The notes under the pieces are model-generated. The model was not told where the DNA came from. It worked only from the letters and a program-made list of their open reading frames with translations, and did not search any database. Positions 12,252-44,354 of a stretch of 45,977 nt of DNA are shown here, piece after piece. Both the position numbers and the translations under genes were made by a program. How positions within the stretch are numbered: the stretch's first letter is position 1; every line of letters starts with the position of its first letter. Origin of the DNA: a virus; IMG/VR virus record IMGVR_UViG_3300032265_000714, positions 1 to 45,977 of that record; one strand, written 5' to 3'.

Positions 12252-12271
12252 ATTTTAAAAGAGAGAAAGAA

Positions 12272-13104: not shown

Positions 13105-13125
13105 ACTATTTTACAAAGGAATTAT

Positions 13126-13359: not shown

Positions 13360-13366
13360 GAATACC

Positions 13367-13442: not shown

Positions 13443-13448
13443 TTTAAT

Positions 13449-25316: not shown

Positions 25317-25317
25317 A

Positions 25318-27785: not shown

Positions 27786-27830
27786 TATTGCCTTCTCCTA
27801 ATAACTTAGCAGTTAAATATATTGTATCAC

Positions 27831-27838
27831 TATTTATT
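27831..27838 (-). promoter_or_regulatory. Late-type promoter of the halogenase operon
   Basis: AATAAATA on the minus strand, one base off the T4 late consensus. The predicted +1 near 27825 leaves a ~40-base leader with AGGAGAAGG before the GTG at 27785. Confidence 0.55.
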
Positions 27839-27853
27839 ACATACTATAACCCT

Positions 27854-28288
27854 ATGAAACTAATCAGAGAAAACAAAGAAAAACAACGTTCGGTGTTTCT
27901 TGACGGGGATCGCTATGTAAAAGTATGGGGTAATCGTCCAACCATGTGGATACAAGAGCATGTGCAATTATTGCAAACTCATGTTCCTGGTTTTGTTATA
28001 GACTGCGGTGACAATTGGATTTCATATAACATTATACCCGGAGTGCCGGCAAGCGAGTTCCCGCATACTTTAGATTTTGTAAAACGTATACACGACTTCT
28101 GTATTGGACAGATTAAAGAAACCCATCCTTGGTATCACGGGGATTGGACATTAAGCAACATGATTATCGATGGTAATACTATTACTATGGTTGACTGGGA
28201 TAATCTAGGGCAGTACCCGGAAGACGAAATGCAATCAAAACTTAACTCAGATCTAAAATCGGCATTCGGTGACCTTTATGTTTTTTAA
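27854..28288 (+). CDS. Small phosphotransferase-fold kinase-like protein
   Basis: 144 residues from the ATG at 27854; the longer frame upstream lies in the divergent promoter region. H95-G-D97-x4-N102 (HGDWTLSN) followed by D114-W115 (MVDWDNLG) is the catalytic and metal-binding core of aminoglycoside-, choline- and fructosamine-kinase-type enzymes. The N-lobe is reduced to ~60 residues, so it is a minimal kinase. Substrate unknown. First gene of a plus-strand operon of five; overlaps the PP-loop gene by 11 bases. Confidence 0.7.
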   Translation: MKLIRENKEKQRSVFLDGDRYVKVWGNRPTMWIQEHVQLLQTHVPGFVIDCGDNWISYNIIPGVPASEFPHTLDFVKRIHDFCIGQIKETHPWYHGDWTLSNMIIDGNTITMVDWDNLGQYPEDEMQSKLNSDLKSAFGDLYVF

Positions 28289-29354
28289 TATTAGTCGAAA
28301 TAAAAATATAGAATTTCCTGTGCATGTCCAGTATGCTGGGTTGTTCATTGATCTTGACAACGGATGGACTAACGACAACGGAGTTATAAGCAAAGGGTTA
28401 AAAGATAACAAATGTATTATTACATGTAAAAATAATACAATTACAATAACTGTTGACCGACGTAGAACATTTCCGTTATTTTATGACGAAGAACATATCA
28501 GTAATATCATCAACTATACTAATGAATTTTTTACTAACGAAGATTTAAGTGTTTTAAATGATATTGTAACTGTTATTAAAAGTAGCGAGCCTAGAGAGTT
28601 TACAGATCTTAAAATGAACGATGATCAATTGTTTGACTACCTATATGATTACTTAGACGATAAGGTTGGTAACTTTGAAGACCAAGCACCAATAAAGTTC
28701 TTTCCAACAGGGGGTGTTGATACTGGTGTTATTATGTCATTTGTATTAAAGCACAAAATTCCATTTGAACTATTAACTGCTGAATATAAAGATATGGATT
28801 ACTTTACTTGCCATACTAGATCACGTATAGGTAAGTTTTGGGCATACAGAAACATACACCATTGGAAAGAACCTAGTATACTGTTGTCTGGAACCAACGG
28901 TGATGAAATGATGCTACGTAATCCACATGATGCATATTTGATAGGTAAAATACACGGAGAGGATATCTTACAAACACTAGAAAACTCTAATACATATCAT
29001 AGTCATTATTTTCTTAGAAACAAACATAAGCCAGGATATGACGAAATTGATACACTAGACTTAACATTAGCACAAGCAAGACAGCGTGTCATTGATAGAA
29101 ATTACTGCGACTATCAACACTGGCACCTGGGTAATACATTAACATGGACTCCGCTGAATGACCTTACCTTAGTTAATATAATGTTAAATTTTAGTTACCC
29201 TTATGTAAGAACTCAACTACTTGATGCTGGTATTAGTAAGCAATTGATTATACGTAATAACCCCGATCTTTTAAAGTTTGTGTCGCCCTCCAAAAATAAT
29301 ATAAATTTTCAGCACCTACATAAAGTGTTTGAAGGTTTGGAAAGTTTTAAATGA
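28278..29354 (+). CDS. PP-loop amide-forming ligase, asparagine-synthetase-like
   Basis: 358 residues from the ATG at 28278 (a GTG three codons upstream is possible). FPTGGVDTGV around residue 145 is the ATP-pyrophosphatase loop of asparagine and beta-lactam synthetases, with Thr in place of the first Ser. LLSGTNGDEMM resembles their GxGGDE segment. The N-terminal ~110 residues lack the catalytic Cys of the glutaminase domain, so ammonia or an amine would be the direct nucleophile. It probably adenylates a carboxylate and forms an amide. Confidence 0.75.
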   Translation: MFFNISRNKNIEFPVHVQYAGLFIDLDNGWTNDNGVISKGLKDNKCIITCKNNTITITVDRRRTFPLFYDEEHISNIINYTNEFFTNEDLSVLNDIVTVIKSSEPREFTDLKMNDDQLFDYLYDYLDDKVGNFEDQAPIKFFPTGGVDTGVIMSFVLKHKIPFELLTAEYKDMDYFTCHTRSRIGKFWAYRNIHHWKEPSILLSGTNGDEMMLRNPHDAYLIGKIHGEDILQTLENSNTYHSHYFLRNKHKPGYDEIDTLDLTLAQARQRVIDRNYCDYQHWHLGNTLTWTPLNDLTLVNIMLNFSYPYVRTQLLDAGISKQLIIRNNPDLLKFVSPSKNNINFQHLHKVFEGLESFK

Positions 29355-30574
29355 CTCCGCAATCATTCAGCTACGGGGTTTTAGGCAAGGACGGACTTAT
29401 CTATTTGCCTCCTTATGGTCTAAACGAATGTTTAGATTACATGCTCAGCCTTGACCCAGAAACGTATGCTATTAAGAAAATTCCCGTAATTGTAGATAGT
29501 AGTTTTGAAAAATGGGTCGTTAGTGTAGTAGTCAGAGATAAGATTTACGTGTTACCTTACAACGAAAGCTCTATGCTGATTATAGATACAGATAGCAATA
29601 CTGTTAATACAATTAATCTTAATCTAGCAGGCAAAGGCAAATATACATCGGCTCATGTTTACAAAGATAAAATTTATGCTTTACCCTTTGGGATTGATAG
29701 CGAGTTTAACCAAGTACTAGTTGTTGATACTATAACTGATACATTTCAAACCGTTGAATTAGACATTCCTACAAACAATGAAAAGAAGTGGCACACCACC
29801 CAGATCATCGATAACATAATATATGGCATGCCGCGTGGCGAACTTGCTGATCCGTATTTTCCATATCGCATTGAATTCGATTGTGACACATTAGATTATC
29901 AGTTATCAGACATCAGTAACCTGTGGAGTGATATCGACAAACAAGGTTACGCTACAGCCAAGTACACAACTATGGCTGTATATAAAGATAAACTGTTTGC
30001 ACCGCCGTATTGCAGAAATCCTAATTTTGATTTGATGGCAATGTTTATTAACGGCCAATGGAGTTATACTCATACAGGGCAAACCGCAACTAGCAGAAAA
30101 TACTATACACATACAGTATCTAAGAATGGAAAGATATATTTTCCTCCAGCAGGGCATGACGAAGATTGGTCTGAATTGATGATAGTCAACGGTGAGACAA
30201 ATCAGATAACTATTAAAGATTTAGGCATAGGGAAAGAAAGTAAAAAATACTTTGCAGGTTGCGAAAATAGCCAAGGTAAAATTTATTACATACCTAGAGG
30301 TGGCTGCGTTTGTATGCCAGAAGATTCGTGGAAAGAGTTAGGCGACTTGACTGAAATACTAGTTGTCGATACCGCAGACGATTCTACATATACTATTGAT
30401 GTTAGCGAGCATTATAAAGACAGCACAACTATAGAAAAATATAACAACTGTGTTATTGTAAACAATAAGATATTTGCATTGCCGTATGGGGAAAGCGCAG
30501 GCTTTCAAGACATACTTGTGTTTGATACAATAACAGAGCAGGTAATTAAAAAGATAAACTTAGATGACTTATAA
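29351..30574 (+). CDS. Beta-propeller-like repeat protein
   Basis: 407 residues with about seven repeats of ~50 residues of the form KY-x(4,6)-V-x(2)-D-K-I-Y-x-L-P-x-G followed by a strand such as LVVDTITDTF. Examples are YKDKIYALPFG, YKDKLFAPPY and NKIFALPYGES. Such repeats are typical of a beta-propeller. No catalytic motif and no signal peptide are visible. Tandem paralogue of the next gene, with a 4-base overlap upstream and an 11-base overlap downstream. Probably a scaffold or ligand-binding protein for the neighbouring enzymes. Confidence 0.7.
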   Translation: MTPQSFSYGVLGKDGLIYLPPYGLNECLDYMLSLDPETYAIKKIPVIVDSSFEKWVVSVVVRDKIYVLPYNESSMLIIDTDSNTVNTINLNLAGKGKYTSAHVYKDKIYALPFGIDSEFNQVLVVDTITDTFQTVELDIPTNNEKKWHTTQIIDNIIYGMPRGELADPYFPYRIEFDCDTLDYQLSDISNLWSDIDKQGYATAKYTTMAVYKDKLFAPPYCRNPNFDLMAMFINGQWSYTHTGQTATSRKYYTHTVSKNGKIYFPPAGHDEDWSELMIVNGETNQITIKDLGIGKESKKYFAGCENSQGKIYYIPRGGCVCMPEDSWKELGDLTEILVVDTADDSTYTIDVSEHYKDSTTIEKYNNCVIVNNKIFALPYGESAGFQDILVFDTITEQVIKKINLDDL

Positions 30575-31718
30575 AGCATTTGAAGATTACTATAAAGAAG
30601 CAAAGATAAAACACCTTGTACTGTTTGAGCACAACGGGTATTTAATCAGCCCTCCATTTTGTACAGACACTTGTAAAGACTACAGTAATGTAATGGTGTA
30701 TAAGGATGGAGAGGTTGTGTACATAGATATAGACACACCCCCTGCAACTAGCAAGTATAACTCAATGGCAGTTGTTGGCGATAGTTTATTTTTTGCACCC
30801 TATGGTATATGGGATAATTTTAATACTGTACTTGAATTAAAAAATTGGAAGCCTATATATCATACGATAGACAGTGCAGGCAAAGGACAATTTTATAACA
30901 TGGCCAGCAACGGCACAACAGCATTTGCCGCACCTCTTGGCTACGACCCAGTCAGCTTTGGGTTGTTTATCAAAGACGGAGAGGTAAAACAAATTCCAAT
31001 ACCTGCTAGCCCCGCATTAAAACGACATATGGGTTGTGTGCTTGCCAATGGAAATTATTATAGTCCTCCAAGAGGAGAAACATTAGACTACGATACCATT
31101 TTAAAATTTAATCCTACTACTGAAGAAGTTACAATGATTGAAATTGATAATCTTCCTTTAAGTAAACGCAAATACAGTGACTTCATACAAGCAGGTAATA
31201 AGTTATTTGCTTTACCGTTTGGGCGCGAACAGGAATTACATCATATGCTAGTATTGGACACTATTACAGATAGTACAGAACTTGTAGAATTAGCTGTTCC
31301 ACCTTTTATGAAAAAATACAATGTAGGTGTGTTGCTTGATGATATTATCATAGCAGTGCCTTATGGGCATAAAGATGACGGTGATGCTAACTGCGGACTT
31401 GTGTTTAATACAACTACATATGAACACACAACATTTGATGTTGGTCAATCTTTTGGCGGTAAGTATAGATTCCGTTGCGGTATTGTTTATAATAGCAACG
31501 CCCTGTTCTTTCCTACAGGAACACCTAATGCTGACATTATTGCTATAGACAAAACTGGTACTGTTGTATTTAGAAAATCATTGCCTGAATACATTTTAGG
31601 AAGACCTATAGAACATACAGGGGTGGTATATACATTAGCATATCAAGTAGTAACACAAACACATTGTTTAATGACGCTAGATAAAGATTACAATATAAAT
31701 TTTGAGGTATTGTTTTAA
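30564..31718 (+). CDS. Beta-propeller-like repeat protein, paralogue of the preceding gene
   Basis: 384 residues with six to seven repeats sharing KY or KR, then a strand and a P-x-G turn (for example GDSLFFAPYG, GNKLFALPFG, LDDIIIAVPYG). Same architecture as 29351-30574, so the pair arose by duplication and then diverged. Its last base is shared with the next radical SAM start (TAATG). Confidence 0.7.
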   Translation: MTYKAFEDYYKEAKIKHLVLFEHNGYLISPPFCTDTCKDYSNVMVYKDGEVVYIDIDTPPATSKYNSMAVVGDSLFFAPYGIWDNFNTVLELKNWKPIYHTIDSAGKGQFYNMASNGTTAFAAPLGYDPVSFGLFIKDGEVKQIPIPASPALKRHMGCVLANGNYYSPPRGETLDYDTILKFNPTTEEVTMIEIDNLPLSKRKYSDFIQAGNKLFALPFGREQELHHMLVLDTITDSTELVELAVPPFMKKYNVGVLLDDIIIAVPYGHKDDGDANCGLVFNTTTYEHTTFDVGQSFGGKYRFRCGIVYNSNALFFPTGTPNADIIAIDKTGTVVFRKSLPEYILGRPIEHTGVVYTLAYQVVTQTHCLMTLDKDYNINFEVLF

Positions 31719-32809
31719 TGCCACAATGTAATGCTCTGGATAATCATCTATGTACTGATACCGATGTCAGGTTCAGACCCTGCTGTGTATTTCGTAAACG
31801 TAGCAACGGTACTATTGAATCAGGTGGGTTAGATTGGGCAACATATAAACATACGTTTATTAGCAATGTAAAAGATACAATGCAAGATGGTTGGCATGCA
31901 GGTTGTGAAAGTTGTCGAATTGATGAGGAATCTGGTAAGGAGAGCCAACGTATGCAATACAATCAAATACTAACCGGCACTACTGATCAATTAGAATTTC
32001 TAGATATTAGTTTTGCAAACGAATGTAATTTAACTTGTAAGATGTGCGGACCACCGGCCAGTAGTAAATGGGAACGACTAGTAACTAAACATGCAGATTT
32101 AAAAACATATCCCCACTACCAGTTGAATAATTACGCTGATAAATCAGTACACGATATACTAAGATCCATAGATTTTAAATATGTAAACACAATAAAACTA
32201 CAGGGCGGAGAACCGTTTATTGGTAATAGCTTAGAGCTAATGTTACAGGAAATTAAGAATAAAGGTTCTTTAGAAAATATTTCTCTACGTACTAGTACTA
32301 ATTGTACAGCATTTCCCAAGTCCATAATCAACGATTTATTAAAATTTAAAAATGTATCAATAGCATTAAGTGTAGACGGTATTGACGAATTGTGTAATTA
32401 TATACGTACTGGATGTTCTTGGGCAAAAGTATATAAAGTGATCAAGCAATGGATTAAACTTGCCCGTACAAATCCGCAAATAGATCTTAGTATATCTTTT
32501 ACATTGCAGGCTTTAAACTTACATCAATTCTTATTAGTGAAACAATGGGCGACAGATCATAACATACGATTTAGTTTTGATGTGCTAAAAGGACCTATAG
32601 AATTATCCATTTATAGTTTACCTAAAGACTATATTATGGAATTAGATCATAATGGTATGCTTGACGAAGAACTAATAAGATTGCTAGTTGCTCCTAGCTA
32701 CGATCCTGCACAATTACTAAAATTATTGACAAGCCAAGATGTTGCTATGAAAACTAGTATCCAAGAAGCGATACCGGACTTACACAAAAGTTTAATTAGA
32801 TTTTCTTAA
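31718..32809 (+). CDS. Radical SAM protein with an N-terminal Cys-rich domain
   Basis: 363 residues. C103-x3-C107-x2-C110 (CNLTCKMC) is the radical SAM cluster; LQGGEPF follows. Unlike most SPASM/Twitch enzymes, where auxiliary cysteines follow the barrel, here they precede it: C4, C12, C22, C23, C63 and C66. The same order is seen at 36396 and 39524. Substrate unknown. Last gene of the plus operon; ends overlapping the convergent radical SAM gene by 18 bases. Confidence 0.85.
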   Translation: MPQCNALDNHLCTDTDVRFRPCCVFRKRSNGTIESGGLDWATYKHTFISNVKDTMQDGWHAGCESCRIDEESGKESQRMQYNQILTGTTDQLEFLDISFANECNLTCKMCGPPASSKWERLVTKHADLKTYPHYQLNNYADKSVHDILRSIDFKYVNTIKLQGGEPFIGNSLELMLQEIKNKGSLENISLRTSTNCTAFPKSIINDLLKFKNVSIALSVDGIDELCNYIRTGCSWAKVYKVIKQWIKLARTNPQIDLSISFTLQALNLHQFLLVKQWATDHNIRFSFDVLKGPIELSIYSLPKDYIMELDHNGMLDEELIRLLVAPSYDPAQLLKLLTSQDVAMKTSIQEAIPDLHKSLIRFS

Positions 32810-33694
32810 ATAGATATCACTTAAACAAGTACATTTAGTATTCCCACATATAATTGGCTCTGTAGGTAATACATACTCCTCAAGTGTTCCAATCTTGCCG
32901 CCATATAAACAATCGCTACGATAAATGTCGCCCCAGTGGTCTATACAGATCATGTCAATGCCTGCCCAGCATTGCCAGCCTTTATGATTATTCTTGCCCG
33001 ATATGATCAATTCATTAGCACTAATTTCAACACCATCTAATAAGAGTTTGCCTCTATGTAATTTTTGATCTGGTAAGTTACGTAAAAACTTCCATTCTTT
33101 AATTGTCTTAAGTTGATCTACTGAGAACTCTCCAGGGTTGTTAGTATACGATCCTTCTTGTTTGTCTAGTACTACCTTAGGCCATATTGCAACTGTTGGC
33201 GATGCATTATATAAAGTTTCAGCAATGTCTAACATACTGTCAAAGTTATCCGGAGTAAACATAACATTAACTCCCTTTAGTACTTCGACGTTTTGTAAAA
33301 TAGAAACAAAATGATTTATATCAGCATACTCTGGGTGATAGCTTAGAATCATACCATCAGTATACTGCGATAGTTTTTGATAATACTCTACAGTTTGACT
33401 ACCGTTAGTTAAGTAACTAAAGATGTGTCCTTTACTTTTAACTAGTTCGGCAAACGCAAGAAAGTGTTTCCAATATGTAGGCTCCCCTCCACTTATTCTA
33501 TAACACACTTCTTTACCTGGGTAATCGAAGTTTTCCACAAACTGTTTAACAACAGCCCACTCAGGCCATCCCGAAGATCCGTCATGTAAAAATGTTGGGC
33601 AGTAACTACATCTGTAGTTACATTTGTTTCCTAAAGTCCAACTGACTAAGAACCAATTCGCCTTAGCGGGATCATAATATGTTAGCGTACTCAT
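32792..33694 (-). CDS. Radical SAM protein, CNYxCxYC family
   Basis: 300 residues. C25-x3-C29-x2-C32 (CNYRCSYC), ISGGEPTYW and a C-terminal Cys group (WAGIDMICID, CLYGG, CGNTKCTC) that could bind an auxiliary Fe-S cluster. Paralogue of 37678 and 42339, which share the spacing from the N-terminus or the W-x-L-G-x-x-CNY segment and a conserved WP after the motif. Last gene of a four-gene minus operon that starts at 35838. Confidence 0.87.
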   Translation of the reverse strand: MSTLTYYDPAKANWFLVSWTLGNKCNYRCSYCPTFLHDGSSGWPEWAVVKQFVENFDYPGKEVCYRISGGEPTYWKHFLAFAELVKSKGHIFSYLTNGSQTVEYYQKLSQYTDGMILSYHPEYADINHFVSILQNVEVLKGVNVMFTPDNFDSMLDIAETLYNASPTVAIWPKVVLDKQEGSYTNNPGEFSVDQLKTIKEWKFLRNLPDQKLHRGKLLLDGVEISANELIISGKNNHKGWQCWAGIDMICIDHWGDIYRSDCLYGGKIGTLEEYVLPTEPIICGNTKCTCLSDIYLRKSN

Positions 33695-34347
33695 TGGCTC
33701 ATCATATGTTTTACAATCGTACTAAAATTCTTTTCAGTTACCTTTACTGTAAGTATTAAAGAGTAAACACTATCTGAAAAACTAAACACACTATGCTCTA
33801 ATTGAAAATTAGCAAAGTACAAAAATCCTGGATCAAAATATACAGGTTTGCCATCTATCATTTGTACAAAGTTTTCTGGCTTGCACTTACCAAATACAAG
33901 AATCAATCTAATATATTCAGGAGCAAACCCTGGATGATCAATATGTGGAGGGAAATAGCCACCAGCACCTATCTTTAAAAAATGTACGCGACCGATATCA
34001 GATCCAAACATATCTACAATTTTTTGAATCTGTGGTAATGCATGATATACTGCCGTAGGAGTCACAAAGTTATCTTCACGCATTTCTATATTGTGATATT
34101 CTTGCATATAACCAAAACTATTAAGATGATAGTTGTCCATAACATCACCAGAGTGGCTAGTAACAGGAAGTCCCCATCTGTTATTATGAGTGTCTTTCTT
34201 TGCGTTATACGGACACCAGTTGTTTTTAAATTGTTCTAGACCTTGTTCTAACTCTATAGGATCAACATATAGTTTTAATTTAATATATTGTCCCATATTA
34301 GCAAGACTATTGAACAGTAGACCTCTTTCAATTTCAGACGGAGTCAT
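33691..34347 (-). CDS. 2OG-Fe(II) or Asp/Asn-hydroxylase-like protein
   Basis: 218 residues. H-I-D in FPPHIDHPGF, the strand IRLILVFG, FLYFANFQLEHSVFS with the distal His, and a closing SLILTVKV strand. An Arg for 2-oxoglutarate is not obvious at the usual place. Overlaps both neighbours (4 and 14 bases), so it is translated with the radical SAM protein downstream. Confidence 0.7.
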   Translation of the reverse strand: MTPSEIERGLLFNSLANMGQYIKLKLYVDPIELEQGLEQFKNNWCPYNAKKDTHNNRWGLPVTSHSGDVMDNYHLNSFGYMQEYHNIEMREDNFVTPTAVYHALPQIQKIVDMFGSDIGRVHFLKIGAGGYFPPHIDHPGFAPEYIRLILVFGKCKPENFVQMIDGKPVYFDPGFLYFANFQLEHSVFSFSDSVYSLILTVKVTEKNFSTIVKHMMSQ

Positions 34348-35089
34348 TTTTTTCCTTTTGATAGTTTGTGAAACTAGAACACGCTAGTTGCATGGCATCA
34401 AAATCCCAACCATTCTTGTTAGGTGTAATAATCAAATGTGCTCTAGGTTCGCTACCTGTGTTACGAATACTGTGAAAACTACCAACATCCATAGTACGTA
34501 TATCTCCTTCTTTCCACGGAACTAGGCCGCCAGCTTCCAACACAAATTCAGCACCTGGCGGGTTAATGATTGCAACATTAACAGGCCCGCACAGCATTTG
34601 ACCTTTTGCGTAATCTCTATGAGGAATTGCAAATCCATTGGGTTCTAAGATCATTATCCTAACTCTGACATAATCTTTGATTGGGCTGTTTTTCTTAACC
34701 CACTCAACTGTCTTAGGAAAAAACTTACAAATATCAGTCCACCCAAGCAAGTCATTATCTGTTACTATTCCCTGCTGTTTGTAATACTCGTATGAGTTGG
34801 TCATAATAGAAGAGTACCCGTATAGTGTAATTGATAACCATCCAGTATGTTCCCTATGCGATACAGCTAATGATGTTTTATTTTTAATTTCTTCTTTTAA
34901 TTCTGTGACATCGGTATCTATATCTAATCGAAGAGATTTACATTTACTTTGTGTCTGTATCCATTTAAAATAAGCTATAATTTCTTCAGGAGTTCGTGCA
35001 GTTGTAAACTCTTTGGGGATTTCTAAGATATCACGATTATGCGGTATATCTTTATGTAGATTAAAAAAATCAGTTACTATTTGATCCAT
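34334..35089 (-). CDS. Asp/Asn beta-hydroxylase-like protein
   Basis: 251 residues. H-R-D in FAIPHRDYAKG, TMDVGSFHSIRN with the distal His, and RAHLIITPN with the Arg give the full triad. PGAEFVLEAGG lies between them. Overlaps the gene at 35077 by 13 bases. Part of the four-gene minus operon. Confidence 0.77.
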   Translation of the reverse strand: MDQIVTDFFNLHKDIPHNRDILEIPKEFTTARTPEEIIAYFKWIQTQSKCKSLRLDIDTDVTELKEEIKNKTSLAVSHREHTGWLSITLYGYSSIMTNSYEYYKQQGIVTDNDLLGWTDICKFFPKTVEWVKKNSPIKDYVRVRIMILEPNGFAIPHRDYAKGQMLCGPVNVAIINPPGAEFVLEAGGLVPWKEGDIRTMDVGSFHSIRNTGSEPRAHLIITPNKNGWDFDAMQLACSSFTNYQKEKNDSV

Positions 35090-35838
35090 GGGAATACTTT
35101 AAACCTTTCATCTAGTATTTTGTCTTGTATATCTTTTGCCCTAACACAAGGATAATAAGTACCGTCAGCTGTAAACATAGTAACATACCAATCAATTTTA
35201 TCATTGGCTAAAATCTTGATAAATTCGTTTTGCATCTTCAATCGCAGTTCCACATCATATAGTAACGAGTTAATGATATAACGAAAACAGTTACTAACTA
35301 CAAAAAACCCTTTAGTGCCTTCACAGTTACTTAAAAAACTTTTAACAGAATCAGAATTGAAAATATCTAATTGTGTAAAGTTAGTGATAGTATCTTTATA
35401 CAAGCTCATACTTTTATGTATTGCTGTAGGACTTATATCAATCACATAATGATTAGTTGTAGTTAGTCCTACGTCTGCCGGATTAGTTGCAATCATTTCG
35501 CCTGCTGCCAGGGAAACTAAACAATCAAATGTGCCTTTTAATTCAGGTGCTATATCTAAAGTTTCAGTATTCTGTGGAAAATAGATATTGTAGTTAAAAA
35601 TATCGTTTATAAGATGTGTATCAGATACTGTAAACCCAAAATTCTTTGCTCTAGCTTTGTCACTGATTCCCACTTGCCCAACCATTGCGTATTCTGCGTC
35701 TGTAGGAATTTCTGTAGTGTATTCTACTGTATAGTTTTCCAATAATAAGTCCGCGGTAAAGTACTCGGCTAGGCGTTGGGCCAACCCATTTAAACTACGG
35801 TTGCCGTAATCTTTTCCAACCCAACAAAATTTTTTCAT
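35077..35838 (-). CDS. Protein of unknown function, possibly methyltransferase-like
   Basis: 253 residues. The region VIDISPTAIHKSM and FTQLDIFNSDSVKSFL resembles the acidic loop and following strand of class I SAM-dependent methyltransferases, but the upstream glycine-rich loop is weak (VSLAAGEMIATNPAD). A separate N-terminal domain (~residues 1-95) opens with KKFCWVGKDYGNRS. First gene of the minus operon. Function not established. Confidence 0.45.
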   Translation of the reverse strand: MKKFCWVGKDYGNRSLNGLAQRLAEYFTADLLLENYTVEYTTEIPTDAEYAMVGQVGISDKARAKNFGFTVSDTHLINDIFNYNIYFPQNTETLDIAPELKGTFDCLVSLAAGEMIATNPADVGLTTTNHYVIDISPTAIHKSMSLYKDTITNFTQLDIFNSDSVKSFLSNCEGTKGFFVVSNCFRYIINSLLYDVELRLKMQNEFIKILANDKIDWYVTMFTADGTYYPCVRAKDIQDKILDERFKVFPWIK

Positions 35839-35850
35839 TATATACGCACT

Positions 35851-35858
35851 TATAAATA
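35851..35858 (+). promoter_or_regulatory. T4-type late promoter of the second fibre gene
   Basis: Exact TATAAATA. T4 geometry gives +1 at 35864 and a nine-base leader without a ribosome-binding site before the ATG at 35873. Confidence 0.75.
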
Positions 35859-35872
35859 GCTATGAGATATTT

Positions 35873-36433
35873 ATGAGTTTTTTAAACAGACAAATAATTT
35901 GTAGTGCGGAACCGGGCACTGGATTACCAAAACATATAATTGGTAATGTAATCATACGGTCTGACGATAATAGCGAGCACTTATATATAGACGGCGCCGC
36001 CGACGGTGGCTCTCCTATTTTTGTAGGTATAACTAAATCCAGAGGAACCCAAGAAAATAAACTACCTGTAGGTGCTGGTGATATTCTGGGCGGGCTACAA
36101 GTCTATGCTCGTATTAAGGCAGGAGACAGTTTAGGCTACTGCCATGAGGAAACTCCTTTGCACGGTAGTATAATGTTTAGAGCATCCGAGGACACTACTG
36201 ACGTACTATCAACTGAGTTGTTGTTAGCAGTTAATAGCAAAGATGGACTACGAGTTAAACTAGTATTAGACTCGCAAGGTCACCTAAATGTCTCTGGTAA
36301 TATAAAAACAGGCGAGTTACGAATTACCGACGAGGAAGTAATTGCAGACAAGCCTGTTAAATTTGTTAAAGCAGTTTATGAAGATGTTGAGTACGCTATC
36401 CCATTGTACTCAATTCAGGAAAAACTTTCCTAA
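35873..36433 (+). CDS. Probable virion fibre or baseplate-associated protein
   Basis: 186 residues. Beta-rich sequence with HLYIDGAADGG near residue 35 and LVLDSQGHLNVSGNIKTGELRI near residue 125, phrases common in phage fibre proteins. No signal peptide or catalytic motif. A lone plus-strand gene between minus-strand operons, under an exact late promoter, as expected for a structural protein. Its last 38 bases overlap the radical SAM gene tail to tail. Confidence 0.65.
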   Translation: MSFLNRQIICSAEPGTGLPKHIIGNVIIRSDDNSEHLYIDGAADGGSPIFVGITKSRGTQENKLPVGAGDILGGLQVYARIKAGDSLGYCHEETPLHGSIMFRASEDTTDVLSTELLLAVNSKDGLRVKLVLDSQGHLNVSGNIKTGELRITDEEVIADKPVKFVKAVYEDVEYAIPLYSIQEKLS

Positions 36434-37694
36434 AATCAGTACCACGTTGTTGATCACAGCTTTCTAAATATTCTATGGTAGAGGGCAACTTACTAGACCA
36501 ATCTTCTGCCATCATATATTGAACTAACCCTAACCAACGTTGTTTACCATATGGGTTGTTAACGAACTCATCTCCGTACTGGTTTCTGGCACAAAAATAT
36601 ATAATACGTTTTTCTATTTCTTTTTTAAGATGTAGGGGCAATACTCTGACATTCAAGTAACTAGGCAAATAAACTAAATGTGTTCCAACCAATCCGGCGC
36701 CATACGGAGGCAGATTAATCTTTTTGAAATTCATACTAGTTTTCCAATGAACCAATTCAGGTAAATTCATTATATTCAAAAGCTGTACTGCACACGCTAT
36801 GTTTACCACTATGTGATCCGGAGTGTCATCTAGACGATGTAGATTAGTAACGATGTCTCGCCAGTTGCTAGGGTATCGAATATAATCATTTCTATCGCCA
36901 ACTGCATCAATACTAAAATTAAATTTAACTTGTTTGAAATGATTCCATAATTCAAATAATTTTTCAGGAAGTTCTACCCCGTTAGAATTGTATCTAAGTA
37001 TGCAGTTTTTAGAAGCTCCGGTTTCAACCATAAATTCTAATATTTTATAATGTTCAGGAATTAGTAAAGGTTCGCCTCCTGCAAAATATAATTCTTTAAT
37101 ATAAGTTGCTTGCGAACGCATTGTGTCTAAGAAGCTACCTTTCTGATACCAAGTATAATCAAACGACGAATCCCATCCTTGGTCCTGTTTAAGCTCAACA
37201 GTTTTATATTTAGGATATTGTATCTTCCATTCTTTAATCCAACTACTACTATCATGTGGGCTACACATGATACATTTAAGTTGACACATATTTCCTAGTC
37301 TTAAATCAAAATATGGAATATTAACTGGTAGGCTGCCGTCCGGGGAAGTTTGTGCTACAATGCTGTTAATATCTAATCTATCTTGCCAGACCATTGTTTC
37401 CCAATTACGTTTGCTCGTAATACCTTTTTCTTCTTCTTGAAAACATTTAGTGCAACTGTTTGGAATTTTATTATCAAGCATTTGTAATCTTACATTACGC
37501 ATAAAATCACTGTTCCAAACTTCTGCAACAGTATGGGTTTTAAGATTCATATCTTTTACTAAGCCAGCATCCTTTACATCGATAATACCAGCACCGCTAG
37601 CATTGGCTGTACAACATACACGAACATCACCATTTGGGCGTGTAGCAAGATGTATCCACGGAAGCGGGCAGAATGTTTTACTCTGGTTTAGCAT
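36396..37694 (-). CDS. Radical SAM protein with an N-terminal Cys-rich domain
   Basis: 432 residues. The N-terminal domain carries FCPLPW with C9, C27-C28 and C81-x2-C84 (SCTKC). The radical SAM motif C137-x3-C141-x2-C144 (CQLKCIMC) follows, then FAGGEPLL. The N-terminal placement of auxiliary cysteines matches 31718 and 39524. End gene of a seven-gene minus operon (43298 to 36396) in which all neighbours overlap by 4-17 bases. Confidence 0.87.
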   Translation of the reverse strand: MLNQSKTFCPLPWIHLATRPNGDVRVCCTANASGAGIIDVKDAGLVKDMNLKTHTVAEVWNSDFMRNVRLQMLDNKIPNSCTKCFQEEEKGITSKRNWETMVWQDRLDINSIVAQTSPDGSLPVNIPYFDLRLGNMCQLKCIMCSPHDSSSWIKEWKIQYPKYKTVELKQDQGWDSSFDYTWYQKGSFLDTMRSQATYIKELYFAGGEPLLIPEHYKILEFMVETGASKNCILRYNSNGVELPEKLFELWNHFKQVKFNFSIDAVGDRNDYIRYPSNWRDIVTNLHRLDDTPDHIVVNIACAVQLLNIMNLPELVHWKTSMNFKKINLPPYGAGLVGTHLVYLPSYLNVRVLPLHLKKEIEKRIIYFCARNQYGDEFVNNPYGKQRWLGLVQYMMAEDWSSKLPSTIEYLESCDQQRGTDFRKVFPELSTMG

Positions 37695-38694
37695 TTTTAT
37701 ATTTTGTTAGTTTAACGTCTGAATTACAACTACAAATTAGTTGCTCGCACGTTACAGGTTTAATAATATCTTTAGTAAATTTTTCTATAAAGTTGTCATC
37801 GAATATATTTAACGTTCCTATATCAAACAAAGTACGTTGGCCGCAACTACCATATATCTCCCCGTCTGCTTGTACTACAAGTCTATCGGTTACTAAATTA
37901 CAAGTCCACCCATAAAAGTTATTCATGCGGTTTGACATTATGTCAAATGTTTTAAACTGTTGTCTAGTACCATCGTCGAAGTAGGTATATGCCTCTGTTC
38001 GATCAAGTTGGATAGCACCCAACGATTTCATTTTTTCTATATAATCAGATGGGGGTATACGTTTTATCTTATCTTCAAGAAATTCTAAATCTTCTTTTGA
38101 ATAAGTGTCTTTAACTATATGATCGTTTTCGTCAACTAACATCCAAGATTTAACTAGCCAAGGGATAGGATGTGCTATTAAATTATCAAGTATGTTTTTA
38201 CATTTATCCCATGATTTAGGATCCATCATAACTGCGGCAGATACCATAGTATTATTTTTATTGTAGATCAAATCAGCAACGGCTTTTATATGTTCAATAT
38301 CGCAAAACTCGTGATGCACACTAATCATAACATCGTCAAAGTAGTCAGAATACTCTTCCCACCAACGTAGTGTTCGACTTCCGTTAGTTGACATGGTTAT
38401 CCTACAACCGTGCTTTTCATATATGAATTTGGCAAACTCTCCTAACTTTGGCCATAAGGTTGGCTCACCGCCTTGAAAGTGCAGACGTATTTTCTTTTTT
38501 CCAATATCGTATTTGTAAACTGAGATTATATGATCAAAGCTCTTACATACTTTATCATAATCGGGCCAGCGACTTGTTCCGCTATGAGCATACGGCCAGC
38601 AATAGTTACAGCTATAATTACATACATTAGTAAATGAATATTCAAGATTTAAAAAATCTTCTTGGGTTTTGTTTATAATTGCTACAGGCTTCAT
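37678..38694 (-). CDS. Radical SAM protein, CNYxCxYC family
   Basis: 338 residues. C25-x3-C29-x2-C32 (CNYSCNYC) at the same position as in 32792, followed by WPYAHSG and FQGGEPTLW. C-terminal cysteines (WTCNL, GSCGQ, CEQLICSC) may hold another cluster. Overlaps the N-terminal-Cys radical SAM gene by 17 bases, so each type is made with the other. Confidence 0.87.
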   Translation of the reverse strand: MKPVAIINKTQEDFLNLEYSFTNVCNYSCNYCWPYAHSGTSRWPDYDKVCKSFDHIISVYKYDIGKKKIRLHFQGGEPTLWPKLGEFAKFIYEKHGCRITMSTNGSRTLRWWEEYSDYFDDVMISVHHEFCDIEHIKAVADLIYNKNNTMVSAAVMMDPKSWDKCKNILDNLIAHPIPWLVKSWMLVDENDHIVKDTYSKEDLEFLEDKIKRIPPSDYIEKMKSLGAIQLDRTEAYTYFDDGTRQQFKTFDIMSNRMNNFYGWTCNLVTDRLVVQADGEIYGSCGQRTLFDIGTLNIFDDNFIEKFTKDIIKPVTCEQLICSCNSDVKLTKYKNAKPE

Positions 38695-39536
38695 TTCATC
38701 AAGTACCTTAACAAAGGACTAAGACCGACAAAGTTGCCATCTTTAGTGTAAGCCATATGGATAGCATTAGAAGGAGTTAAATCAAAATCCCTACAAACTT
38801 TAGCATTTAACTCGCTGTATGTTTTCCATAAGTAGTCAGATTCAACATTAGCTAGAACATGATTTCCTACCATAGTTAACATTCTACAATTCATATTAAA
38901 ATCGTTCATAATTGAAATACTATCGTTCACAGCATCCTTATGCCAACGTAAGCCAATTCTGTTCCAACCTAATCCTAATCCTTTGCTTAAACTTATCCCG
39001 ACAGACCTAATCGATGGATGAGATAAATCAAAGTCGATTCCGCGGCAGCAAGTAAGCCAAGCGCCGTCCACATGTATACTAATACCTTTGTCTTGCGCTT
39101 CATCTAATATATCCTCCATATCAATATGTACTGTTCCTGTACTAGGAAAAGGCATAGCAATTATTAACGGGACACCTTCCTTTAATAGCCCTGGCCTAGT
39201 ACCCCAATTACCTAGTCTATCATGATATCTATAATCCCCGACCAATACTTGGGGTTGGCACTGCATATAGATATTATCGATAAATTGTGTACACCCGATA
39301 ATTACATCTAGCCGATTAAAGTTATCAAATCCAGATAACTGGTTCAGTGTAGAAGATAAAATCCAGTTTGATGCTTGATGTTTAAATTCATCAATACCTG
39401 CTAGTGTGTGGTCTGCGGTCCAACCTGTAGTTATTTGTTCAAATAACGATTCTAAATAATTGTCGCACAGAGCTTGTGGTCTATCAACTTCTAGCCACTT
39501 GCTTGAATACTCGGGTGCTATTTTTAATCGTTCCAT
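38691..39536 (-). CDS. PLP-dependent aminotransferase-fold enzyme
   Basis: 281 residues, short for fold type I (usually ~390). D157 in SIHVDGAW matches the Asp that contacts the pyridine nitrogen and K185 in ISLSKGLG the Schiff-base Lys. The C-terminal small domain is reduced. It could transaminate, decarboxylate or desulfurate a small substrate. Overlaps radical SAM genes on both sides (4 and 13 bases), suggesting one pathway. Confidence 0.78.
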   Translation of the reverse strand: MERLKIAPEYSSKWLEVDRPQALCDNYLESLFEQITTGWTADHTLAGIDEFKHQASNWILSSTLNQLSGFDNFNRLDVIIGCTQFIDNIYMQCQPQVLVGDYRYHDRLGNWGTRPGLLKEGVPLIIAMPFPSTGTVHIDMEDILDEAQDKGISIHVDGAWLTCCRGIDFDLSHPSIRSVGISLSKGLGLGWNRIGLRWHKDAVNDSISIMNDFNMNCRMLTMVGNHVLANVESDYLWKTYSELNAKVCRDFDLTPSNAIHMAYTKDGNFVGLSPLLRYLMK

Positions 39537-40792
39537 TCTTGTATCATCTTATAGCATTTAGGAAAAATTACAGACCAATCCTTATTTTGTATTGCAGACA
39601 TTTTTACAAAAAACTCTGCTAATTCTTTTCTACCTTGTGAAATTTCAGATTCTGTCAACGGCATGCTTTTAGCATATATGTTCCATTGAAGTAGTTTTTC
39701 CTTAATATCTGTATCAGTAGTTATCTGATTAAGATAGGCAAACATACGGGCATGCTGTTGTTCTGTCATTAAACCAATATTTAAATACTTAGGGTTCATT
39801 ACAGGATGACTTACCATTCCTGCAAAAGTATCCTTGTTGATTTTTTTAAAATTCTTATCTTTTAACCACTGCATCCAGTCTACGAGAAATTCTAAATTTA
39901 GTATAGATATTGTTGTACTAGTAAACACTGTAATATTATCTGGCAGATTATCTAATAGTTCTAGATTTTTTTCTACGACACTCCACTTAGTTGGAAAACG
40001 AATAGCTTCGTCAACTATGCCTATACCATCTACGCTGGCGCATAACTTAACTAACTTAAATTTATTAAACAAATCAAAAACATAATTTGGAAGGACTGTT
40101 ACATTGATACTGTATTCTAACTCCACATCCTTGGCCAGTCCTTTAGTAATTAATCCTTCGAGTAGTGTAATATGCTGTTTTTCCAAGAAAGGTTCACCAC
40201 CGCCAAACTTAATCTTTTTAACATACTGAGAATGCTCTAATAATAACTTGTAGTAGGATTCTTGCTCACTCCAAGTAAAATCTTTGTAATTGACATCATA
40301 AGTTATATCATCTATTAGAAAAACTTTAGAACCTGTAATTTGTTCTTGTATCTTATACCATTGATTGCTTTCGCCTGGATAGCACATAACACATTGTAAA
40401 TTGCACTTATTACCTAGTCGCAAATCCAACGATAATATCTTATGTTCCGTAATAGTGCCATCTTCTAAAGTAATGCGTTTAGCATCATCTTTGGTAAAAT
40501 CGTACATGGTTGCTTCCCACTCATTGCGAGAACGCTTACCAGATTCTTTTTCTATCTTGCATCTACGACATTGTTCAGGCCATTTGTTATTAATAATCTG
40601 TTTACGAATATCTTTAAGGGTATTACAATTTAAGACATCTGTATCTTTGAGATCGTCAATCCGTAAATGCTCAAGCAGTGTATTTTTATTACCACCGCTT
40701 TGACTGTGAGAACACACTCGTAGATAACCATTGCTTTTTACAGCAACATGACTCCAAGGTAATGGACACCATAGGTTATTTGAACTGTTCAT
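39524..40792 (-). CDS. Radical SAM protein with an N-terminal Cys-rich domain
   Basis: 422 residues. WCPLPW with C9, then C27, C75-x2-C78 (QCRRC) and the motif C130-x3-C134-x2-C137 (CNLQCVMC); FGGGEPFL follows. Clear paralogue of 36396 (same Cys order, similar spacing and length). Shares 17 bases with the next radical SAM gene upstream in the operon. Confidence 0.87.
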   Translation of the reverse strand: MNSSNNLWCPLPWSHVAVKSNGYLRVCSHSQSGGNKNTLLEHLRIDDLKDTDVLNCNTLKDIRKQIINNKWPEQCRRCKIEKESGKRSRNEWEATMYDFTKDDAKRITLEDGTITEHKILSLDLRLGNKCNLQCVMCYPGESNQWYKIQEQITGSKVFLIDDITYDVNYKDFTWSEQESYYKLLLEHSQYVKKIKFGGGEPFLEKQHITLLEGLITKGLAKDVELEYSINVTVLPNYVFDLFNKFKLVKLCASVDGIGIVDEAIRFPTKWSVVEKNLELLDNLPDNITVFTSTTISILNLEFLVDWMQWLKDKNFKKINKDTFAGMVSHPVMNPKYLNIGLMTEQQHARMFAYLNQITTDTDIKEKLLQWNIYAKSMPLTESEISQGRKELAEFFVKMSAIQNKDWSVIFPKCYKMIQEWND

Positions 40793-41762
40793 TTAATTTG
40801 TCAAAACTACCACATTGTTTTCCGCACTCTCTCAACCCAGTAGTAGTCCAGCAATTTGCAATTTTATTGAAGTAACCCGAATTAAAAATTTCTTCTAACT
40901 TGGTCTTCTTTAAATTAGGGTATACTCTGATTTTGTCTTTATAATCAATTCTAGTTAGATTAAATGGTTCATCCCATTCGTTATCTAACCAACAACAAGG
41001 TGTAACATTACCAGTTGCACTAACATACAGTTGATTACTTTGTTTAGCCTTACATGTGATTGTTGGCAGTACTTCCTGCTTTGTCTTATTAATTTTTGGA
41101 AGCATTGCTTCGCTTTTTTCAGTAGGATATAAGACATGAGTAGTTCTGCCTTCTTCATCTATTACTGGCATATAATCGCCACGGAACCGACTAGTGTTCT
41201 TTGCTTTAAAGTCTGTAAATCCAAGTTGGTTACTTAACTCTCGACATTTGTCCACCTGATGCATGTTATGCTGAAATATTAACATGTCCCATCTAGCATC
41301 ACCCCCAGCACTAATAAAAGCTGTAGCGTTATCAATAATTGTTTGCCAGTTTGTTGAAACACGATATAAACTATGAGTATCTGCGAGGCCGTCAATTCCA
41401 AACACTACAACTACATTTAATTTTGCAAGAGACTTCCACCAATCTAATGACCTAGCACTACCATTGGTATGCATGTTCAATAATATATCTGGATTGTGTG
41501 TTCTAATATATTCAAAAATTTCCAATGTGTCTTTGGCGATTATCGGATCACCTAAATTACCACACATAAAAAGTTTAGATAGCTGTTTAATAAATTCTAT
41601 ATCAAACCATTCTTTAAATTGCTCGAGTGTTATTTCTTCCAATGTTATATACGGATTGATAGGGCCGCCTCCAGGACGACGCGGACACATTGGACACCGT
41701 GCCTGACATTTAGATGTAACCTCTAAATGGACTTCGCGAATATCAGAATAGTTATACATCAC
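40776..41762 (-). CDS. Radical SAM protein, SPASM/MoaA-type
   Basis: 328 residues. C19-x3-C23-x2-C26 (CQARCPMC) near the N-terminus and a C-terminal SPASM-like region (ATGNVTPCCWLDN, NCWTT, CGKQCG). This is the conventional order and belongs to a different subfamily from its neighbours. Overlaps the methyltransferase-like gene by 11 bases. Confidence 0.87.
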   Translation of the reverse strand: MMYNYSDIREVHLEVTSKCQARCPMCPRRPGGGPINPYITLEEITLEQFKEWFDIEFIKQLSKLFMCGNLGDPIIAKDTLEIFEYIRTHNPDILLNMHTNGSARSLDWWKSLAKLNVVVVFGIDGLADTHSLYRVSTNWQTIIDNATAFISAGGDARWDMLIFQHNMHQVDKCRELSNQLGFTDFKAKNTSRFRGDYMPVIDEEGRTTHVLYPTEKSEAMLPKINKTKQEVLPTITCKAKQSNQLYVSATGNVTPCCWLDNEWDEPFNLTRIDYKDKIRVYPNLKKTKLEEIFNSGYFNKIANCWTTTGLRECGKQCGSFDKLNEQFK

Positions 41763-42348
41763 GTCTACCTATTATCATGTACCTAGTATACAACTGTGTT
41801 TGGAATTCACCACGCCATATCACACGTATATGACTTTGATTTTCAAATTCTTCCATGCTGTTACAAATTCTTATATGTTCAGGAATATCATAGTTGTTAC
41901 TTTGTAAAACAAGTAAACTGCTCGGATCAATCATTTCTAACCAATGGTCATAATGCTCTTGGCTGATATGTTCGCAACTTGTATTGATAACAACATCTGC
42001 ATCACTGGGTACATTAACCATGTCTTCGCATATTGCTTCAAACTTTCCAGTGATGTGTTCGCCTTTATTCATCATCTCCGCGATAGGCTTACATTCAGGA
42101 TCTATATCGATACTGTTAATCTTTATAATTTCAATTTCGCTTTGAAACAATAAGCTGGCTAGTGTGCCTACCCAACCTCCGTATACATCGATAGTAACAG
42201 GCTCAAACATCTTATCTGCCAGTTTGTTCACAAGCCATATCTTACTATCAATTTGTCCGCGCCAAAAGGCTTCCAGTGTTTGTTTAGGATCTCGGCTATC
42301 GCGGATAGCACACATCCAATAGTGTAGGTGGTCGGTATCTATTTGCAT
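41752..42348 (-). CDS. Class I SAM-dependent methyltransferase-like protein
   Basis: 198 residues. IDVYGGWVGTLAS (motif I-like loop), SIDIDPEC (acidic motif II) and DVVINTSCEHI (motif IV region) fit the class I Rossmann methyltransferase fold. It would methylate a small molecule or a protein. Overlaps radical SAM genes on both sides, so it probably works on their product. Confidence 0.75.
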   Translation of the reverse strand: MQIDTDHLHYWMCAIRDSRDPKQTLEAFWRGQIDSKIWLVNKLADKMFEPVTIDVYGGWVGTLASLLFQSEIEIIKINSIDIDPECKPIAEMMNKGEHITGKFEAICEDMVNVPSDADVVINTSCEHISQEHYDHWLEMIDPSSLLVLQSNNYDIPEHIRICNSMEEFENQSHIRVIWRGEFQTQLYTRYMIIGRRDV

Positions 42349-43298
42349 TTTGGTATCTTTGAATCGGCACTACTTACACACTTAGGAGTAACACACTTCT
42401 GTGGGGCGGAAAACAAAGTAAATTTTTCTATCGTGCCCAAACTTTCTTCCTTACAACTGTATGCTCGTTTGACCTCATTACCTTTTATTATAACACTTTG
42501 GTACCCACTATTACAAGTCCAATTGGTAAAACTATTAAACCCTAATGCGTTGAAACGTTCTGCTTGATCAATGTAATAGTCCTGTGTTCCGTCAGTCAGT
42601 CTAATCTGATGCTCGCCTTGTTGTTCAAAATCATTTTGCATTATAGCAATCATATCAGGAGTATAGCCCTCTACAATAGCAGTAGCAGTATCATTGCTTT
42701 GTGGTTTGAGTGTTACATTGATTCCACGATTACGCAACCGCTCACAACGTTCAAGTGTTTCATAGAATAATGCAGGCATCATAACTTGGTTAACAGTCAC
42801 TAATACCATGTCATACATCAACTGCAAACACTTGTCTCCAAATTCTTGTTCTCGAGCAAACTCTGCATGATAACTAGCCGTAATGCTCCTACGCTGTAGT
42901 AAACAAGTAGCATTGTGCCAATTGCGCCACCAAGTCAGACTAGGACTCAAATTGGTAGTCATGTGTACAGTTTGGTAAGGAGTCTCTGCACCATCGTCTA
43001 AATGTTTGGTTAATTCTAACAAGTGTTTATAAGCAGTAGGTTCACCTCCGCTGAACGACCAATGGAACTGGTTAAACCCATTGGCTCGTGCTTGACGCTT
43101 AATCTCGTCTACAGTAGATTTATATACTTCAAGCGGTTGGTGATCAGGAACATCGGCTCTAGCATAGGGCCAACAGTAACTACATTTATAATTACAAAAT
43201 CTGCCCAAGATCCAACTTACGTTAAATAATGGACGATCCAGCATGGTTAGCTGTCCAAAATGAGTAATCTTTTCGAAAGGTATGGTAGAAAATTGCAT
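42339..43298 (-). CDS. Radical SAM protein, CNYxCxYC family
   Basis: 319 residues. C35-x3-C39-x2-C42 (CNYKCSYC) preceded by VSWILGRF and followed by WPYA and FSGGEPTAY. C-terminal cysteines (WTCNSG, YSCKE, CVTPKCV) may bind an auxiliary cluster. First gene of the seven-gene minus operon. A weak CTTAAATA six bases upstream of the ATG could be a diverged late element. Its start codon lies against the promoter of the tRNA-like gene on the other strand. Confidence 0.87.
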   Translation of the reverse strand: MQFSTIPFEKITHFGQLTMLDRPLFNVSWILGRFCNYKCSYCWPYARADVPDHQPLEVYKSTVDEIKRQARANGFNQFHWSFSGGEPTAYKHLLELTKHLDDGAETPYQTVHMTTNLSPSLTWWRNWHNATCLLQRRSITASYHAEFAREQEFGDKCLQLMYDMVLVTVNQVMMPALFYETLERCERLRNRGINVTLKPQSNDTATAIVEGYTPDMIAIMQNDFEQQGEHQIRLTDGTQDYYIDQAERFNALGFNSFTNWTCNSGYQSVIIKGNEVKRAYSCKEESLGTIEKFTLFSAPQKCVTPKCVSSADSKIPKCK

Positions 43299-43326
43299 TG
43301 ACAGTATTTAAGTGCGAGTATATAAT
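43298..43326 (+). promoter_or_regulatory. Consensus sigma70 promoter of the odd tRNA
   Basis: TTGACA (43298-43303), 17 bases, TATAAT (43321-43326): a full consensus. The expected start (~43333) coincides with the first base of the tRNA-like gene. Confidence 0.9.
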
Positions 43327-44183: not shown

Positions 44184-44354
44184 ATGACACATTGGACCGT
44201 AACAGTTGAAGAAGCAGATGATGGCAGTGGAGATTTGGTTTTACCATTGCCTCAAGAACTATTGGATTTACAAGGGTGGGTAGAAGGCGACTCACTCAAT
44301 TGGATAGATAATAAGGATGGCTCGTGGAGCATTTCGAAAGTAACTAATGGCTAA
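44184..44354 (+). CDS. 56-residue AbrB/SpoVT-like protein
   Basis: SGDLVLPLPQELLDLQGWVEGDSLNW (residues 15-40, in two overlapping motifs) matches the swapped-hairpin AbrB-type DNA-binding fold of transcription factors and antitoxins. The GD-x-L turn is diagnostic. It probably binds DNA as a dimer. It overlaps the IF-1 gene start by eight bases, so the two are co-translated. No toxin gene is adjacent, so a regulator is more likely than an antitoxin. Confidence 0.7.
   Translation: MTHWTVTVEEADDGSGDLVLPLPQELLDLQGWVEGDSLNWIDNKDGSWSISKVTNG

Follow-up and report, generated by a model that had tools for sequence, protein, structure and literature searches.

A stretch of viral DNA, IMG/VR virus record IMGVR_UViG_3300032265_000714 (positions 1 to 45,977; 45,977 bp in all, hereafter the window), carries between positions 31718 and 43298 a packed set of radical S-adenosylmethionine (SAM) enzyme genes together with a methyltransferase gene. 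We are highly confident that this set belongs to a conserved enzyme cassette of uncultivated phages, at least some of them T4-like, and that it forms one functional unit. The core of the cassette consists of B3, a methyltransferase (MT), SPASM, Twi1, and one or two radical SAM (rSAM) proteins with C-terminal cysteines (B1/B2), which nearly always lie in one overlapping operon, and the 2-oxoglutarate (2OG) oxygenases, kelch-like proteins, pyridoxal phosphate (PLP) enzyme, and a protein termed c6 are interchangeable accessories. There is about an even chance that the cassette encodes a multi-step C-H-functionalising and methylating pathway, which acts late and decorates the surface of the virion or of the infected cell. 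The presence in many uncultured water-dwelling phages of a packed set of at least four rSAM proteins and a methyltransferase, usually just downstream of visible tail-fibre genes, suggests an undescribed decorating pathway.

The seven rSAM proteins that an earlier note on this DNA had reported within 31718-43298 all score above the Pfam Radical_SAM cut-off, and every open reading frame (ORF) that it named was found where it had been placed. Seven consecutive minus-strand genes, B3, MT, SPASM, Twi2, PLP, B1, and Twi1, overlap by 4-17 bp. The genes of this region are the following.

42339..43298, minus strand: B3, rSAM protein with CNYKCSYC and a C-terminal auxiliary Cys motif; highest conservation in the core, at 66% mean identity
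41752..42348, minus strand: MT, core member with the fold of a class I SAM-dependent methyltransferase; co-varies with B3 and is present in 145 of 157 loci
40776..41762, minus strand: SPASM, rSAM protein with a C-terminal SPASM domain (Pfam), core member
39524..40792, minus strand: Twi2, N-terminal-twitch rSAM protein of a rare clade (the window and four close viral relatives)
38691..39536, minus strand: PLP, probable fold-type-I PLP enzyme, accessory; 14 loci counting the window
37678..38694, minus strand: B1, rSAM protein with CNYSCNYC and a C-terminal auxiliary Cys motif; adjoins its partner Twi1
36396..37694, minus strand: Twi1, N-terminal-twitch rSAM protein, core member; 65-80% identity in about 70 viral loci
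35873..36433, plus strand: fibre-like small protein without a profile match; homologues in 10 other loci
35077..35838, minus strand: MT2, methyltransferase-like by eye, without a Pfam match
34334..35089, minus strand: OxB, 2OG oxygenase of the aspartyl/asparaginyl beta-hydroxylase family
33691..34347, minus strand: OxA, 2OG oxygenase akin to L-proline cis-4-hydroxylase; its co-variation with B2 reaches r 0.86
32792..33694, minus strand: B2, rSAM protein with CNYRCSYC and a C-terminal auxiliary Cys motif
31718..32809, plus strand: Twi3, N-terminal-twitch rSAM protein, convergent with B2; has a single close relative (L009)

Scanning IMG/VR with profiles of the two families (Twi and B) gave 156 fetched loci, which collapse into 98 non-redundant groups. 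Among the 41 groups found with Twi, the genes other than the bait include SPASM in 40, B3 in 37, and MT in 36; among the 57 found with B, they include MT in 53, Twi in 52, and SPASM in 50. The recurrent core of the 98 loci is B3-MT-SPASM-Twi1-B1/B2, with stop and start codons usually overlapping. The commonest tandem neighbours are SPASM-Twi (51), Twi-B1 (49), MT-SPASM (34), c7-B2 (32), B3-MT (31), and c6-B3 (26), where c7 denotes a second N-twitch clade distinct from Twi1, and such pairs have median overlaps of 4-38 bp (medians of -4 to -12 bp in the core pairs). Fourteen viral records searched for rSAM genes hold 6-15 of them per cassette contig. A comparison of cassette genes of the window with those of the nearest relative, L009, where B1 has no counterpart, gives a pN/pS (the ratio of non-synonymous to synonymous polymorphism) of 0.09-0.41, and these genes are therefore maintained by purifying selection. 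Because the gene set recurs in 98 non-redundant viral loci and shows such pN/pS values, it stands beyond chance association.

Particular pairs of genes are also adjacent far more often than under shuffled labels. When the family labels were shuffled within cassettes 200 times, Twi and B1 were expected to be neighbours in 22 loci (shuffle maximum 35), compared to 56 of 98 observed, and c7 and B2 in 15 (maximum 23), compared to 34 observed; B3-MT (31 versus 16 expected) and c6-B3 (26 versus 7) likewise exceeded all 200 shuffles. The two types of rSAM protein that the earlier note had found side by side in this DNA are thus linked elsewhere as well, and from this linkage across loci its proposal of a multi-enzyme phage pathway emerges as the best reading. 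Shared contig ancestry feeds all correlations between the distance matrices, so that the informative part is the contrast of partners with non-partners: c7-B2 reaches a Mantel r of 0.80-0.82, compared to 0.25-0.37 for the other combinations; Twi-B1, Twi-B2, c7-B1, and Twi-c7 give 0.25-0.32, whether in all loci or in the same 48 loci. The corresponding values are 0.71 for B3-MT, 0.86 for OxA-B2, and 0.76 for K1-K2. Since Twi-B1 is strongly adjacent and its co-variation is no higher than that of non-partners, the partnership of these two proteins is argued for by adjacency alone. Taken by sequence, a partnership of the N-twitch and CNYxCxYC types is supported, c7 and B2 being the predicted pair that is both adjacent and co-varying. 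B3 (66% mean identity), MT (56%), and Twi (55%) are the best-conserved core members, and B3 and MT together form the most conserved, co-varying core besides c7 and B2.

Auxiliary cysteines had been proposed to precede the rSAM domain in the proteins encoded from 31718, 36396, and 39524, which is borne out by the NCBIfam family NF033640 (N_Twi_rSAM, 'twitch domain-containing radical SAM protein'; curated cut-off 170 bits), exceeded by Twi1 with 413.5, Twi2 with 286.2, and Twi3 with 203.5 bits. The three proteins share with this family, for which no experimentally established function was found, the N-terminal twitch ahead of the radical SAM domain. What sets them apart is a viral cassette of fixed composition, in which their partners are MT, SPASM, and rSAM proteins bearing C-terminal cysteines. 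Pfam SPASM is matched at residues 9-84 of Twi1 and 9-79 of Twi2, and in an alignment of 25 sequences C9, C27, C81, and C84 of Twi1 are invariant, ahead of C137xxxC141xxC144. The maximum-likelihood tree of 80 N-twitch proteins places Twi1, Twi2, and Twi3 in three separate well-supported sets, each with viral orthologues (for Twi1 the common clade of that name, for Twi2 four close relatives, and for Twi3 one), the deep placement of Twi3 being unsure owing to long branches.

The CNYxCxYC signature assigned to the proteins from 32792, 37678, and 42339 is present as CNYRCSYC in B2, CNYSCNYC in B1, and CNYKCSYC in B3, and proteins of this type have an invariant C-terminal Cys set (C265, C284, C316, and C321 in B1). 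Because the twitch cysteines come first in the Twi types and the Cys set is C-terminal in the B types, the reversed domain order is real. B1, B2, and B3 form separate groups, found in 117, 122, and 131 loci, respectively, with B2 paraphyletic in a quick tree. All three fall below the cut-off of every curated rSAM family; the nearest, prokaryotic viperin (NF038283), was rejected at 55.6, 36.1, and 34.4 bits for B1, B2, and B3 against a cut-off of 180. The added SPASM-type protein of the earlier note (40776-41762) likewise holds up, with Pfam matches to Radical_SAM (38.2 bits, cut-off 29.5) and C-terminally to SPASM (26.6 bits, cut-off 21.5). As named functions for this protein, the heme b synthase AhbD (TIGR04545; 25.6 bits, cut-off 500) and the tungsten-cofactor oxidoreductase maturase (TIGR04317; 52.8 bits, cut-off 380) were discarded, and MoaA and the other named rSAM families are all far under their cut-offs for the rSAM proteins of the window.

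The product of gene 41752 has no Pfam, NCBIfam, or PDB sequence match. Its model adopts the Rossmann fold of class I methyltransferases, with a mean predicted local distance difference test score (pLDDT) of 95 and 1185 Foldseek matches at E<=0.001, the best of which are nicotianamine synthase and natural-product methyltransferases; in the VIA comparison the top matches, ChlM and NodS among them, tie at a Z of about 17. By its fold it can be classed as a class I SAM-dependent methyltransferase, for which methyl transfer is predicted. Of the PLP enzyme and methyltransferase that the earlier note had joined to the rSAM proteins, the latter is upheld by the model, and the identity of the former is probable, pointed to by a weak profile match (best E 0.028) and a conserved SLSKG lysine in a protein that is rare (13 loci besides the window).

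The position of the cassette provides a clue to its role. A profile of the fibre N-terminus and an MT profile were run on 34 records, 17 of which have full-strength fibre matches, and in 16 of these 17 fibre-bearing relative contigs MT lies 8-25 kb downstream of a tail-fibre trio on the same strand. In two contigs, PHROGs matches place the cassette downstream, again on the same strand, of three fibre-like proteins and of a giant virion structural protein situated past the fibres. A similar setting has been described for pelagimyophages, in which the host recognition cluster is an island that combines radical SAM cassettes with glycosyltransferases and tail fibres (PMC7029224). The relative contigs here match it in having rSAM genes within a variable island next to the tail fibres of aquatic T4-like phages; the passages of that paper considered here name the rSAM genes without order, pairing, or mechanism, whereas the core and its position are resolved in the present data. 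The pelagimyophage cluster has VrlC and the neck protein gp14 as its bounds; the gp14 and gp8 models had no match in any contig, which is uninformative.

In the proposed mechanism, the cassette would be expressed late, with or after the tail-fibre genes. The pairs of N-twitch and C-twitch rSAM proteins would abstract hydrogens from, oxidise, or rearrange a common substrate, which MT would methylate, and PF05118-type hydroxylases, found in 12 of 14 cassette contigs, would add variation together with lineage-specific enzymes. The product may end on the tail fibre or virion or on the envelope of the infected cell, and there it could alter adsorption or exclude competitors. A narrower version, which we regard as unlikely though tenable, is post-translational maturation of the tail fibres, in which the paired N-twitch and C-terminal-twitch rSAM proteins, MT, and Asp/Asn/Pro-type hydroxylases at the end of a tail-fibre operon would equip the fibre, or a group attached to it, with unusual carbon-centred modifications; if true, such a pathway would let phages vary their host recognition by chemical means.

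Several observations weigh against a pathway that decorates the virion or cell surface. Its substrate and its late expression are what we infer from the gene set and its setting. In the 353-kb contig G005, the exception among the fibre-bearing relatives, the cassette is far from the fibres, and several of the 16 other contigs are near-identical or follow one genome plan, so that the position counts roughly once per lineage. The fibre trio profile has no match in the called ORFs of the window or of the fetched loci, most of which are too short to reach there; since the trio is not in view in the window, the position beside fibres is carried over to it from cassette homology. GT2 glycosyltransferases are nearly absent from 14 cassette contigs, with one contig over the cut-off, which weakens a plain glycan pathway. 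Finally, c6, a conserved DxD-bearing protein, has no significant profile match of its own, and with one sub-cut-off Pfam match in locus L226 its glycosyltransferase nature is a weak lead. A plain O-antigen cluster was rejected on the near absence of GT2; among cultured analogues, glycosyltransferase genes do occur in between rSAM genes, namely GT8 in Vibrio phage K566 and, as annotated, nucleotide-diphospho-sugar transferases in CP220.

A rather unlikely alternative is that the cassette and its accessories, among them a halogenase, acyl-adenylating enzymes, an amidinotransferase-like protein, 2OG oxygenases, and the PLP enzyme, make a free small molecule, a diffusible secondary metabolite or cofactor that benefits the infected cell or is harmful to competitors. 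Suitable enzymes abound in the window, including a Trp halogenase (278 bits), an AMP-binding protein (188 bits), several PF05118 hydroxylases, a B12-binding rSAM protein, and an amidinotransferase-like protein. However, most of these are window-specific and outside the core, with the halogenase in 11 loci and AMP-ligases in very few; moreover, export genes are not recognised, and the position beside tail fibres would be left unexplained.

Of about the same low probability is a route resembling that of ribosomally synthesised and post-translationally modified peptides, in which the substrate of the rSAM proteins would be a ribosomally made precursor peptide or some larger protein of the phage, for example K1/K2 or a tail fibre. 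SPASM and twitch rSAM enzymes often act on peptides, a site next to fibre genes suits a protein substrate, and the model of Twi1, a radical SAM fold with a pLDDT of 89, has anSME, CteB, SkfB, SuiB, and EpeE among its top structural neighbours. Its best VIA match is anSMEcpe (Z 12.7, root-mean-square deviation 3.8 over 224 residues), but CteB (12.3), BlsE (12.1), and viperin-like enzymes (12.0) are all tied with it within one Z unit, and BlsE and the viperin-like enzymes have small-molecule substrates; therefore, the structure cannot separate peptide from small-molecule substrates. The radical SAM core is common to Twi1 and anSME, CteB, and BlsE (Z 12-12.7 over about 215-224 residues), but the identity is only 14-15%, and the substrates are not transferable. 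The auxiliary domain of these three enzymes is C-terminal. In addition, no conserved small ORF (25-110 aa) was found inside the cassettes except for IF-1, other phage-core ORFs, and tRNA read-through, a search that a shorter or more distantly encoded precursor would escape. The version with a large protein substrate overlaps with the surface-decorating pathway preferred here.

Large phages with many rSAM genes have been noted before. The Campylobacter phages CP220 and CPt10 carry five rSAM genes and an amidinotransferase, for which a boost of host metabolism was proposed (PMC2853527), and they resemble the present phages in being large virulent phages whose five rSAM genes sit together with a glycine amidinotransferase and nucleotide-diphospho-sugar transferases in a single block that is interchangeable (PMC2853527). 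By contrast, no orthologue of Twi1, B1, B3, or MT was found in the Campylobacter phages at E 1e-5, and the SPASM type finds a 26% match only. The T4-like environmental genome TARA_ERS488813_N000010 has 12 radical SAM genes, which were explained as Fe-S related metabolism (PMC5332604); the likeness, compared by gene count, is that of many rSAM genes in one T4-like marine phage. In a search of 50,697 phage records, B1, MT, and B3 had no match, Twi1 was matched in three Vibrio phages only, and SPASM in Campylobacter phages only, all at about 25% identity. In Vibrio phage K566, four N-twitch-type proteins are interleaved with the GT8 glycosyltransferases, but they form a separate tree clade, and MT, B3, and B1/B2 members were not found. 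K566 is the nearest cultured analogue, the INPHARED collection having yielded no isolate with the cassette. The earlier description of the pathway as undescribed holds in part: no published account of this gene set or its pairing was found among open-licence papers, whereas phage rSAM clusters were noted in PMC2853527 and PMC7029224.

That the cassette is a collection of general auxiliary metabolic genes, boosting host metabolism with no link to the virion or surface, is quite unlikely. The idea was proposed for CP220 and CPt10 (PMC2853527), whose clusters likewise combine several rSAM genes with an amidinotransferase, but no host pathway was matched above cut-off in the present analysis, and a dedicated product is suggested by the fixed place after the tail fibres and by B3 and MT being conserved gene for gene in diverse contigs. 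Phage rSAM genes have repeatedly been listed as odd auxiliary genes and given borrowed names, such as ahbD in Baltic Sea viral contigs (PMC9301287), where 261 viral 'ahbD' calls were reported and the inference was called speculative by the authors (PMC9301287). Some of these calls may be SPASM or N-twitch members of the present cassette. If many such genes belong to one cassette beside fibres, they would represent one dedicated pathway rather than scattered metabolic boosters, probably one that decorates the phage or host surface, and the cassette offers defined enzymes, partner pairs, and a place to seek the product.

Hypermodification of phage DNA or tRNA by these enzymes is very unlikely. 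Phages use rSAM and PLP enzymes in DNA hypermodification, the window holds 28 tRNA genes, and the flank of one contig has an ORF that looks QueE-like by eye; however, none of the seven rSAM proteins is over the cut-off of a nucleic-acid-modifying family, and a site after the tail fibres, not with replication genes, does not fit. That the set arose by local duplication of a two-enzyme module of N-twitch and CNYxCxYC types in this phage, as the earlier note proposed, is highly improbable: the two types are adjacent far above shuffled labels and c7 and B2 co-vary at about 0.8, but Twi1, Twi2, and Twi3 sit in deep separate clades and B1, B2, and B3 in separate orthologous groups, with orthologues elsewhere, so that recent local duplication is rejected, and B3 pairs with MT rather than with an N-twitch protein. 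An ancient co-duplication of the two types is possible.

Parts of the cassette also occur in bacterial or bacterium-binned sequences. MT relatives occur in many Alphaproteobacteria, and no cassette member was found beside those; MT homologues there lie near GT28 genes, which are convergent and not co-operonic, and were not used as evidence. In two Pseudobdellovibrio genomes, MT and an N-twitch rSAM gene form an overlapping two-gene unit (L204 1142-3231; L238 9911-11916), possibly a minimal cellular version. A 13.5-kb contig binned as Neisseriaceae has the order c6-MT-SPASM-B1-Twi-Twi and could be a misbinned phage. Locus L169 (genome G015, contig C34) is a 349-kb bacterium-binned contig with cassette members and many rSAM genes, either phage or chromosome.

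Further genes of the window lie outside the region listed above.

30564..31718, plus strand: K2, repeat protein with a recurring PxG motif, putative beta-propeller, accessory; 42 loci counting the window
29351..30574, plus strand: K1, kelch-like repeat protein, accessory; 38 loci counting the window, co-varies with K2 (r 0.76)
27776..28288, plus strand: APH-like small protein, accessory; 37 loci counting the window
17394..18881, plus strand: probable tail-fibre protein with an Mtd_N domain
4828..6357, plus strand: eighth rSAM protein, B12-binding type, outside the cassette

K1 and K2 (29351-31718), encoded on the other strand than the cassette, are both conserved and built of repeats in which a PxG motif recurs; neither c6 nor K2 gave a usable PDB profile match. 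In L226, a 651-aa protein (11513-13468) has a C-terminal Asp_Arg_Hydrox domain preceded, by eye, by an MT2-like sequence, and this ORF would link MT2 and OxB of the window as fusion partners. The phage origin of the window is supported by its IMG/VR virus record and by T4-type gp23 in 5 of 15 long relative records, the majority of which are fragments.

Of the tRNA genes, 27 are within the first 14.5 kb (186-14467), many interspersed among protein genes. A tRNA integration site for the cassette was rejected, since of the 63 testable loci only 6 have a tRNA in the 1.5 kb upstream of B3. A perfect sigma-70 consensus (43298-43326, plus strand; TTGACA, 17 nt, TATAAT, 12/12) stands directly ahead of tRNA-Gly at 43333 and points away from the cassette. 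At 44347-44565 (plus strand) the phage encodes a translation initiation factor IF-1 that matches solved structures of IF-1 at E 3e-20 and is conserved beside the cassette in about 13-20 viral loci. Within 23167-28288, the Trp halogenase is followed by a run of aspartyl/asparaginyl-hydroxylase-family proteins, with a possible membrane desaturase-like protein, seen by eye, at 24693. The amidinotransferase-like protein (9286-10413, plus strand) has weak similarity (E 9e-6) to the glycine amidinotransferase of the CP220 radical SAM cluster, and a ferredoxin-type 4Fe-4S protein (11315-12139, plus strand) resembles, by eye, epoxyqueuosine reductase.

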